Under the pieces are notes generated by a model. The model was not told where the DNA came from, searched no databases, and saw only the letters and a program-made list of their open reading frames with translations. A program made the position numbers and the translations under genes. Shown piece after piece: positions 28,859-37,173 of a DNA stretch of 64,000 nt (the first letter of the stretch is position 1; each line of letters starts with the position of its first letter). This DNA comes from Enterobacter ludwigii (lineage in GTDB: Bacteria > Pseudomonadota > Gammaproteobacteria > Enterobacterales > Enterobacteriaceae). The DNA lies in assembly GCA_023023105.1 (NCBI GenBank), contig CP083824.1, positions 1,302,001 through 1,366,000 of the forward strand, read 5' to 3'.

Positions 28859-30142
28859 TTACTGCTTCGGCTCAGCAACCACTTTGCTACCCAGACCGCG
28901 GTTGTTGTATTCCCACATGCGGTTGAAGTTAGCGTCGTTCAGGTTGCGCTGCACGTTTCCTTTATCGTCCACCGCACCGGTATTGCCGGAGAACGGACGT
29001 TTGGAGATCGCGGCATCCGCCCACGGCTTCGCCATGTTAAAGCCTTCGTTGATCACGCTGTCGCGGATCACCACCTGACCGTTGGTTGCAGAGTCCACAT
29101 CCAGTGAGCGGCCCAGCTGTGCCACGCCGTCACCGGCAGCATTAAAGCGGCTGTTTACGGCCAGGAAACCGAAGAACAGGTTAGACTGCGTCGCTGGTGC
29201 AAAGACATAGCCTTCCTGCTGAGTACGCGAGTTCACCACGCGGAAGTCGGTGTTATCAAACACCACCGCGCCACGACCGGATACCAGGTCAACATCACCT
29301 TCGACGTAGCTGTTAGTCACCAGCGTACGGGTCAGGCGGTTGTTCTGCAGGGTGTTCTGTACACCGCTGTTGGTCACGAAGAAGGTGTTCTGACGGCCGA
29401 GAATGTTAACGTTGTTGATCTGTACTTTATCACCATCGCTACGCAGCGCGACGGCCTGATGGTTACCTGCATCGACGCTGTCACCCAGGGTGTTCTGAAT
29501 GGTCAGGTTTTGCAGCTGCAAGCCATTATTCTGAGACCAGAATACCGCTGAGCACATCACCCCAATGGTGGCAGAACGCTTGCTCTGGCAGTTATCAAAC
29601 ATGTACCACGCAGGTTTGCCCGGCATATATTTACCGGCTGGGTTCACCAGGCGACGCCAGGCGTTGCTGTCAATTTCTGAATCAATCGCCAGGCCAATTT
29701 TTACATCGATCGCTTTTTCGCCCAGACCGTAAAGGGTAATGCTGCCTGGTGCCGCCGGAACGTAAACGGTGCCTTCATATTCGCCTGGCAGGATCGCGAT
29801 GTACTGACGAGAAGCGCTGTGCTTCGTGATGGCCGCATCAACCGCAGCCTGAATAGAGGTATGCGTTACACCCTGCGTACCTGCCGGCCCAACGACGAAG
29901 TCAGGCTGTTTTGGCAGGTTAATAGAAGACGGTGTCCACGGCGCAGCGTTGGGTTCCATCGCCGAGAAGTAGTGTGCACGGTCGAAGTTCTTCGCTTCAT
30001 CAGCGGACAAAATCGGGCGGGAGGCGGTACCCGGTGCTACCTGCTCAGAAGGCAGCTGATCCGGTGGTGTTGAACTGCATGCGGATAATGTCACGCCAAA
30101 GGCGAGTGCTAACGCCAGACGGGAAATCCTGGAAATGTTCAA
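28859..30142 (-). CDS. ybhC: Pectinesterase-family outer membrane lipoprotein YbhC
   Basis: 427 aa. Lipoprotein signal with lipobox LSAC, acylated Cys22, then a right-handed beta-helix of the carbohydrate esterase 8 (pectinesterase) family from about residue 85. The usual GYQDT active-site motif reads GRQNT here, with Asn for one catalytic Asp, while GDVDLVSG keeps the other Asp; E. coli YbhC shows the same change and is not thought to be a working pectinesterase. Acyl-CoA thioesterase activity has been reported for the E. coli protein. True substrate unknown. Lambda-type attB lies 49 bases upstream. Confidence 0.92.
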   Translation of the reverse strand: MNISRISRLALALAFGVTLSACSSTPPDQLPSEQVAPGTASRPILSADEAKNFDRAHYFSAMEPNAAPWTPSSINLPKQPDFVVGPAGTQGVTHTSIQAAVDAAITKHSASRQYIAILPGEYEGTVYVPAAPGSITLYGLGEKAIDVKIGLAIDSEIDSNAWRRLVNPAGKYMPGKPAWYMFDNCQSKRSATIGVMCSAVFWSQNNGLQLQNLTIQNTLGDSVDAGNHQAVALRSDGDKVQINNVNILGRQNTFFVTNSGVQNTLQNNRLTRTLVTNSYVEGDVDLVSGRGAVVFDNTDFRVVNSRTQQEGYVFAPATQSNLFFGFLAVNSRFNAAGDGVAQLGRSLDVDSATNGQVVIRDSVINEGFNMAKPWADAAISKRPFSGNTGAVDDKGNVQRNLNDANFNRMWEYNNRGLGSKVVAEPKQ

Positions 30143-30191
30143 GGTAAAGCTCCTGGGTATGCAAGTCTTAACGGGATAGACGAAATAGCCT

Positions 30192-30206
30192 GCTTTTTTA
30201 TACTAA
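30192..30206. other. Lambda-type chromosomal attachment site (attB core)
   Basis: GCTTTTTTATACTAA is identical to the 15-bp common core of bacteriophage lambda attP and attB. Flanks CT on the left and GTTGAGCGAAACGGG on the right follow K-12 attB except one base (K-12 has CTTG; the GTTG here matches the attP arm). It sits just upstream of ybhC, where K-12 attB also lies. No phage genes are present, so the site is empty. Confidence 0.85.
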
Positions 30207-30334
30207 GTTGAGCGAAACGGGAAGTTAAAAAGGGTAAAAGTTGCATTTTTTGCCCTCGGGGGGCGGGAAAGTCATCACAAATAAATAACATTTTCCATCA
30301 GGACGGTTGACAGCGGGCAGTGGATGAAAATAAA

Positions 30335-30345
30335 TGTCTATACAA
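30335..30345 (+). promoter_or_regulatory. HutC operator upstream of hutI
   Basis: TGTCTATACAA shares its core with the perfect palindrome before hutU (33352-33365). It fits the TGTATAGACA-type operator of the HutC repressor, whose inducer is urocanate. Its position before the hutI start supports choosing 30367 as that start. Confidence 0.75.
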
Positions 30346-30366
30346 CCCATGACAAGTGGAATACCC

Positions 30367-31590
30367 ATGCAGCAGCTTCATCCCGACGATGTAATATGGC
30401 GAAATGCGCGACTGGCAACGATGGATCCGGAAGGCACCGCTCCGTATGGCCTGAAAGAGCAACACGCTCTGGTGGTGCGCGGCCAAACCATTCAGGCCGT
30501 GATCCCTGAATCTGAAATACCTTCAGGACACCGTCACAGCGTCGATCTTCAGGGACGTCTGGTTACACCAGGCCTGATTGACTGCCATACCCACCTGGTG
30601 TTTGACGGCGATCGCGCGGCAGAATGGGAGCAGCGTCTGAACGGTGTCTCTTATCAAACAATCAGCGCCCAGGGAGGCGGGATTAACGCTACCGTGACGG
30701 CGACGCGCAGCAGTTCACCGGAAACCCTGCTGAAACTGGCGCAACAGCGGCTGCAGCGTTTGATGAATGAAGGTGTCACCACGGTTGAAATCAAGTCCGG
30801 ATACGGGCTAAACGCCGATGCCGAAGAGAAGATGCTGCAGGTTGCACGCCAACTGAGCCTCAATAATCCGGTTGATATAAGCCCAACGCTGCTGGCGGCT
30901 CATGCGGTTCCGCCGGAATTCCGACAGGATCCGGATGCGTACCTCACGCTGGTCTGTGAGCAGATATTGCCCGTGCTGTGGCAAAAAGAATTGTTTGAAG
31001 CTGTCGACGTATTTTGCGAAAACGTCGGCTTTACCCCGTCGCAAACCGAGCGCCTCTTTAAGGCCGCCGCTGCGCTGGGTATCCCGGTAAAAGGGCATGT
31101 CGAGCAGCTGTCGAATCAGGGCGGTGCGGCGCTGGTCAGCCGATATAAGGGGCTGTCGGCCGATCATATCGAATACCTGGATGATGCAGGCGTTCAGGCG
31201 ATGGCACAAAGCGGGACCGTTGCCGTATTGCTGCCTGGCGCGTTCTATTTTCTTCAGGAGCGCCAGCGTCCGCCGGTTGAACAGCTCAGAAAACAGGGGA
31301 TACCGATGGCGGTCGCGACCGACTATAACCCCGGCACCAGCCCGTTTGCCAGCCTGCACCTGGCGATGAATATGGCCTGCGTCCAGTTTGGTCTGACCCC
31401 TGAAGAAGCCTGGGCTGGCGTCACGCGGAATGCCGCGCAGGCGCTGGGTCGTGGCGCAACCCACGGACAGCTGCGGGCAGGGTTTGTCGCCGATTTTATC
31501 GTCTGGGATGCTCGCCATCCGGTTGAGATGGTCTACGAGCCGGGACGCAATCCGCTGTATCAGCGTGTTTTCCGTGGGGAGGCAGTATGA
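30367..31590 (+). CDS. hutI: Imidazolonepropionase
   Basis: 407 aa. Zinc-dependent amidohydrolase that opens 4-imidazolone-5-propionate to N-formimino-L-glutamate, the third step of histidine breakdown. Metal motif DCHTHLVF (about 69-76) and later histidine and aspartate ligands ([23 protein letters not shown]) are present. An in-frame ATG at 30334 would lie in the HutC operator and add 11 residues; 30367 gives the family length. Its ATGA overlap couples it to hutG. Confidence 0.95.
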
Positions 31591-36696: not shown

Positions 36697-37173
36697 TTAT
36701 GAATACATCGCCGTAATCGACGCGCTGCCAAGCGTATGGAAATGTACGTTAAACCCCACCATCGCGCCGCTCGCCCCTTCATCCACCTCAATCTTGTCCA
36801 CATCCAGCGCATGCACCGTGAAGATATAGCGGTGGGTTTCCCCTTTTGGCGGCGCTGCGCCACCGTAACCCGCTTTACCAAAATCGGTACGGGTCTGAAT
36901 CGCGCCTTCAGGCAGAGCAACCAGGCCTGAGCCGGAACCCTGTGGCAGTACGCGTGTGTCGGCGGGCAGGTTCGCCACAATCCAGTGCCACCAGCCTGAG
37001 CCTGTCGGTGCATCCGGGTCGTAACAGGTGACCACAAAACTTTTGGTTCCGGCCGGAACCTCGTCCCACGCAAGGTGCGGGGAGATATTATCCCCCTGGT
37101 ACCCCATGCCGTTGAAAACATGACGCTCCGGCAGTTTTTCACCGTCGCGCAGATCTTTACTGATGATTTTCAT
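36697..37173 (-). CDS. ybhB: PEBP / Raf kinase inhibitor-like protein YbhB
   Basis: 158 aa. Phosphatidylethanolamine-binding protein fold; conserved YDPDAPTGSGWWHWIV with the anion-pocket residues and PPKGETHRYIFTVHAL. The physiological role in bacteria is unknown. No signal peptide, so probably cytoplasmic. Lies downstream of bioA on the same strand with a 48-base gap. Confidence 0.93.
   Translation of the reverse strand: MKIISKDLRDGEKLPERHVFNGMGYQGDNISPHLAWDEVPAGTKSFVVTCYDPDAPTGSGWWHWIVANLPADTRVLPQGSGSGLVALPEGAIQTRTDFGKAGYGGAAPPKGETHRYIFTVHALDVDKIEVDEGASGAMVGFNVHFHTLGSASITAMYS

Follow-up and report, generated by a model that had tools for sequence, protein, structure and literature searches.

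A conserved and empty lambda-type attB upstream of ybhC in Enterobacter ludwigii carries the B' base common in its family

Does the lambda-type attachment site of Enterobacter carry a base taken from a phage, or is it simply what such a site looks like outside Escherichia coli K-12? The question arises from a 64,000-nt stretch of Enterobacter ludwigii contig CP083824.1 (positions 1,302,001 to 1,366,000), called here the window; all coordinates below refer to it. A preliminary description of the window had pointed to an empty lambda-type attB with an intact core, in which one base of the right arm was that of the phage attP. We consider it most probable, at roughly 85%, that this is an ordinary lambda-type attB without a prophage, that its letters are kept by an element upstream of ybhC which lambda-family integrases (Int) exploit, and that the base in question, a G, is ancestral.

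In a scan of the 64-kb window, the 15-bp common core of lambda, GCTTTTTTATACTAA, had a single exact match, at 30192..30206 on the plus strand. By arithmetic with equal base frequencies, about 1e-4 exact matches to a 15-mer are expected by chance. Two further core-like matches had three mismatches each, and the chance expectation for matches with at most three mismatches in the window is 0.82. The attP of lambda (NC_001416, L336) reads ...ttcaGCTTTTTTATACTAAgttgg, the attB of K-12 (L001) reads ...gcctGCTTTTTTATACTAActtgagcgaaacgggaag and the site in the window reads ...gcctGCTTTTTTATACTAAgttgagcgaaacgggaag. The flanks of the window site, including the left-arm CCT and the downstream TTGAGCGAAACGGGAAG, equal those of K-12 except at 30207 (plus strand), where the B' arm has the G of lambda attP and K-12 has C. 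The right arm is AAGTTG in the window and in attP, and AACTTG in K-12 attB. Consequently, the 21-bp attB-equivalent CTGCTTTTTTATACTAAGTTG (30190..30210, plus strand) is identical to K-12 attB at 20 of 21 bases. The 7-bp overlap TTTATAC (30197..30203, plus strand), at which strands would be exchanged, is identical in the window, lambda attP and K-12, and so is the core. Both core-type Int sites are present as an inverted pair, presumably bounded at 30190..30198 for B and 30202..30210 for B'. B reads CTGCTTTTT on the plus strand, as in K-12. B' reads CAACTTAGT on the minus strand, which is the C' site of lambda attP, and CAAGTTAGT in K-12. The term core-type site is used here as in the available portion of PMC4880445. 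No prophage lies between the core and its neighbours.

The site also has the chromosomal position of K-12 attB (att-lambda, between ybhC and ybhB). Its core is 49 bp upstream of ybhC (28859..30142, minus strand), which encodes a putative acyl-CoA thioester hydrolase and was named from matching annotated records, and the place beside ybhC is orthologous in the two genomes. On the other side the two sites differ, which the preliminary description does not mention. The order in K-12 is ybhC, attB, ybhB, bioA, with ybhB directly after attB, whereas in the window the hut operon separates the site from ybhB (36697..37173, minus strand). The first gene of this operon is hutI (30334..31590, plus strand; imidazolonepropionase, from an annotated E. 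hormaechei record), whose true start is possibly further in. Comparison with the K-12 and lambda records thus bore out what had been said of the core, the flanks, the position beside ybhC, the arm letters and the empty, intact state of the site. A chance resemblance in an A+T-rich intergenic stretch might draw on the second exact core copy in one Enterobacter genome (G014); we rejected that copy as an att site, as it resembles the end of a terminator hairpin. Chance is contradicted by the position beside ybhC, by the 20 of 21 matching attB bases and by the conservation in genus and family described below, and we give it practically no weight.

We surveyed 61 Enterobacter genomes with a 40-base pattern over both arms, allowing either base at B' and at most three mismatches. 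An intact site was found in 60 of them. All 60 had G, and in 58 the 40-mer was identical. The single genome in which the site had no match is a draft with 79% completeness. The genus label was taken from E. hormaechei CP103578.1, which is 98.4% identical over 3 kb to one of these genomes; the window itself is about 91% identical to its nearest Enterobacter genome. The same record, CP103578.1 (L200), is typed as a 517-kb E. hormaechei 'plasmid', pMB8072_1, and bears the chromosomal mod-pgl-ybhC-hut region with an empty site, through either a chromosomal insertion or an assembly join.

For the family, the sample was chosen through the DNA upstream of ybhC, so the genomes were not picked by the site itself. 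YbhC matches were present in 106 of 295 genomes, at 107 places. We kept the 88 places with at least 63% identity and fetched 500 bp from each; the 19 that were dropped comprised 18 with at most 51% identity and one partial match (G127). The block was intact in 78 of the 88 upstream regions, with G in 66 and C in 12. Five regions had the left half followed by foreign DNA, i.e. attL-type junctions, and the other five, G205 among them, lacked the block. Counted by genus, 29 of 36 had only G, five had only C and two had both. G is the common form in the family, and the C of K-12 is the rarer base. Judged from this distribution and not from an ancestral reconstruction, G would be the ancestral state and the C of K-12 the derived one. 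Among the matches listed for the CC-licensed PMC literature, we found no report on the family-wide state of this base.

These counts bear directly on the origin of the G. As it occurs in 60 of 60 Enterobacter sites and 66 of 78 family sites, it is no acquired attP feature, and the earlier wording, in which it was an arm change toward attP, has to be given up. It could nevertheless be supposed that the site is a scar, with part of an attP left behind or swapped in by a former prophage, since B' and the C' arm of attP have AAGTTG in common. This is contradicted by the uniformity of Enterobacter and the 29 genera with only G. In addition, the base is outside the exchanged overlap. In one set of IMG/VR loci, 34 of 35 attR junctions keep C, so integration alone leaves the base unchanged; in L122, the sole junction with G, the right flank is Salmonella-like. 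Among 5426 E. coli genomes, KR2009 alone had the exact G form; this count needs an exact 28-base word, so that G forms with another change nearby would escape. KR2009 (L432 3004-3018) has G at B' in an otherwise K-12-like empty site. It might reflect either a back-mutation or an exchange with an attP-type arm, and the latter would be the kind of event that a scar implies. For the Enterobacter site, we regard a scar as very improbable.

Some variation at B' was seen close to E. coli. Of 12 genomes searched in the genus of the Escherichia-like G238, which has K-12-like flanks, three had G, seven had C and two had no match. Four Escherichia-like genomes (L426, L427, L428 and L430) had a doubly changed arm, AACTTT.

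The reading of the site as an ordinary attB includes a reason for its constancy. We aligned the window with 30 Enterobacter genomes chosen by the exact 15-bp core, which the core search had found in 59 of 60 Enterobacter genomes. In the 435 bp aligned among these 31 sequences, attB is contained in an invariant block of 41 bp (30184..30224), and the next longest invariant run was 11 bp. The 40-base pattern search revealed a single difference within the block in each of two Enterobacter genomes. On the right side, the block reaches past attB. Family-wide, its right part and the TATAC/TTAG stretch were most constant, and the left end of the attB core was variable. Such a pattern could hardly come from selection for phage integration, but it fits a promoter or a regulator site of ybhC, and the block is perhaps one of these. 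A candidate -10 element for ybhC, TAGTAT (30200..30205, minus strand, read from 30205 to 30200), with no consensus -35, was proposed from position and conservation; its key positions were invariant or nearly so across the family. TATACT on the plus strand fits a -10 about as well. A sigma-70 scan found no consensus -35/-10 pair at the block reading into ybhC, and the only match there, the plus-strand TATACT, points away from ybhC. The attB letters are probably maintained by the conserved element upstream of ybhC, and not for phages. In several other genera (L036-L039, L056-L063), a perfect or nearly perfect inverted repeat, e.g. GAAGCCGATT...AATCGGCTTC, abuts the block on the side opposite ybhC.

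Lambda-type prophages or their remnants were found at the same locus in relatives outside E. coli. One end of the IMG/VR contig 2847562356_000005 comprises ybhC, attL and int. Its other end comprises attR and host DNA that aligns with the hut side of the window over 182 bp. We call its host Citrobacter-like because C. amalonaticus and G349 have almost the same left arm. Residues 1-356 of its Int align with residues 1-356 of the lambda Int chains 5j0n, 1z1g and 1z1b. C. amalonaticus S646 (the same letters as G160) has both junctions around about 4.6 kb, which include the C-terminal part of a lambda-type int. By eye, this remnant (L197 1082-4229) also holds two acyltransferase-system-like genes and a third fragment. 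In G277, attL, part of int and attR are found about 4.8 kb apart beside hutI, and G144, of the same genus, has an attL-type junction and a weak int remnant; this genus is called Salmonella-like because a listed Salmonella-phage contig carries much the same flanks. In the IMG/VR contig 3300036796_000098, attL and int are at one end, and attR is at the opposite end together with ybhB. Its left arm resembles, by eye, that of genus g97, and ybhC had no match in the 130 bp at its edge. G362 has attL with an int fragment. The Escherichia-like G238 and G497 each have a lambda-type int, the lambda P' in attL, and a lambda-like P arm with a G-type B' in attR, the junctions being on different contigs of draft genomes. 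Only an attR, whose phage arm resembles that of the Salmonella-phage type in L356, was present on the IMG/VR contig 2870449401_000002, and no int was found on that contig. A scan of named genomes for attR gave eight loci. Seven were empty, with ybhC directly beside the core and a diverged left arm, and S646 was the sole occupied one. Within E. coli, 3460 of 5426 genomes matched at least 80% of the 601-bp attB region and 5374 had some match; four of the genomes under 80% were inspected. The Citrobacter-like, C. amalonaticus and Salmonella-like sites share the ybhC locus with the window site and have G-type B' in the attR junctions inspected. They differ from it in being occupied or holding remnants, and the sole readable Int among them has Asp at residue 99.

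Several further records touched on lambda-type sites and integrases. Phage PPompW_132418 (LC567822; L032 5961-6080) has, by eye, an internal fossil of a lambda-type attR, made up of a stretch resembling a P arm, a degenerate core and some tens of bp from the bio side of E. coli, within a prophage that takes its name from ompW. This fossil has matches in six PPompW records, one of which was inspected. The phage records ON470605 (L034) and MF374379 carry host bio DNA up to the attB region (ON470605 was inspected) and are probably transducing forms. Four to five matches to lambda-type int were present in each of G265:C1, G245:C1 and G168:C1. Those in G265 included four with identical scores, and several of those in G245 and G168 had an in-frame TGA.

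The preliminary description had suggested that the site could be a working target for lambdoid integrases in this genus, and had named prophages bounded by the core in relatives as the thing to look for. Such prophages exist, some of them in hosts with the G arm, so the objection that none is ever found falls away. However, occupied sites numbered 0 among the 60 Enterobacter genomes that showed the site (61 searched), so the part of the suggestion that concerns the genus itself has no lysogen behind it. No IMG/VR contig had the Enterobacter left arm (searched as one exact 22-mer), and thus no attL of this type was seen there; none of the eight named loci in the attR scan belonged to Enterobacter. 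Integrases at E 1e-60 or better were present in seven of the 61 Enterobacter genomes, all of them 40-42% identical to the Citrobacter-type Int, and none exceeded 42%. An absence of lysogens among species representatives is no proof that the site is non-functional, and the window site is probably usable by lambda-family integrases. These integrases would exploit the conserved ybhC-upstream element in several genera of Enterobacteriaceae. Int and IHF would bring attP to the site, cut at the edges of the 7-bp overlap and insert the phage, so that attL would lie next to ybhC, and attR next to hut or ybhB. The window copy may be recombined by Int in this way.

We also read residue 99 of the integrases by alignment to lambda Int. 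Among 85 core-scan IMG/VR loci with int, those with the E. coli left arm comprised 75 with Asn and five that were too short, and those with other arms comprised four with Asn and one with Asp (L086). A search with the Salmonella-phage Int gave 80 IMG/VR loci, a set that shares contigs with the former: 64 had Asn (57 with the E. coli arm) and 16 had Asp, and 15 of these 16 were without an att site within the stretch examined. Asp99 was found in the Citrobacter-type Int, the 3300036796 Int, the Salmonella phage 29485 type, HK022 and Gally, and Asn99 in the lambda-clade integrases. More distant Ints had Asp or Glu at 99, or other residues at about 40% identity. The Asp99 Ints at the lambda core had hosts outside Escherichia or no host assignment, with G-type sites where these were readable. 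HK022, which uses another chromosomal site, has an Int 67% identical to the Citrobacter-type Int; it has no lambda core beside int, and its Int is unlike that of lambda at 282, 283, 287, 319 and 329.

Residue 99 matters for the last claim of the preliminary description, that the G might strengthen Int binding. The accessible sections of PMC10863862 describe simulations in which Asn99 of lambda Int makes contact with the guanine opposite one cytosine of attB. The contact is lost when this cytosine is replaced by G, and variant sites with the replacement are poor substrates; Asn99 favours C, and its change to Asp favours the G form. HK022 Int, with Asp, targets an attB that shares this C-to-G transversion. 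From the legend numbering in those sections (G8C, C22G; a 29-mer with equal ends is presumed), the base appears to be the B' base at 30207. If it is placed correctly, the direction of the effect argues against a strengthening.

It might then be supposed that the G weakens the use of the site by lambda itself, because Asn99 needs C, and that the Enterobacter site serves only Asp99-type phages. The lost contact in the simulations, with poor substrates until Asn99 becomes Asp (PMC10863862, same sections), agrees with this, and Asn was present in all 132 IMG/VR rows that have the E. coli left arm and allow residue 99 to be read (75 plus 57, partly the same contigs). However, the prophages of G238 and G497 have Asn99 and an attR with G, which indicates that Asn99 tolerates G; the Int of G238 is identical to that of the IMG/VR contig L084, and the Int of G497 is 98.9% identical to lambda Int. 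A G is also present in the phage's own C' arm, to which lambda Int has to bind. Furthermore, in the available part of PMC5605937, on more than 300 secondary lambda sites, preferred bases are named and none is at this position (+7 in our own mapping). A restriction to Asp99-type phages is therefore unlikely in our view.

A more tentative matter, which we rate as a serious possibility somewhat short of an even chance, is that a G-type B' and an Asp99 Int were the ancestral pair. The E. coli arm would then have changed to C and the lambda clade to Asn99, which would be able to read both the C of attB and the G of the phage's C'. We entertain this because Asn99 needs a single change, because the Asp99 Ints go with G-type or unassigned hosts, and because the starts of two Asp99 int genes had no match in E. 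coli. In a tree of 23 Ints, midpoint-rooted for drawing only, Asn99 needed one change (support 89/88, 91% of bootstrap trees), and the nearest neighbours of the Asn99 clade were Asp99 Ints. The first 600 bp of two Asp99 int genes, codon 99 included, had no megablast match in the 5426 E. coli genomes, in a search that may miss relatives below about 85%. The Salmonella-phage-type int with downstream DNA had no match in E. coli covering 80% of the query; 163 E. coli records had short pieces at 95-99%. For the Citrobacter-type int with downstream DNA, 15 listed matches in E. coli were 73.6% identical and 63 further records were 80-90% identical. A gain of Asn99 in phages facing the C-type E. coli site fits these data, but it is one event on the tree, which proves nothing alone and gives no statistical correlation, and two Asn99 prophages are at G-type sites. 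Comparison of the Int and site letters suggests that residue 99, as Asp or Asn, is matched to the B' base.

For the window itself, the meaning of these results is modest: one more conserved, empty attB. For the family, they concern a standard object of molecular biology that is usually described from K-12, and its K-12 form is atypical there. In the form common in the family, B' has the same letters as the C' arm of the phage and is part of a strongly conserved stretch upstream of ybhC. This would explain how the site persists without phages and how lambda-type phages of several genera come to share it. Residue 99 of Int, known from the lambda/HK022 specificity switches, gains an evolutionary setting. 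If the B' base and residue 99 did change together, the textbook pair of K-12 attB and lambda Int would be a derived exception, and the Enterobacter site would be the ancestral target.
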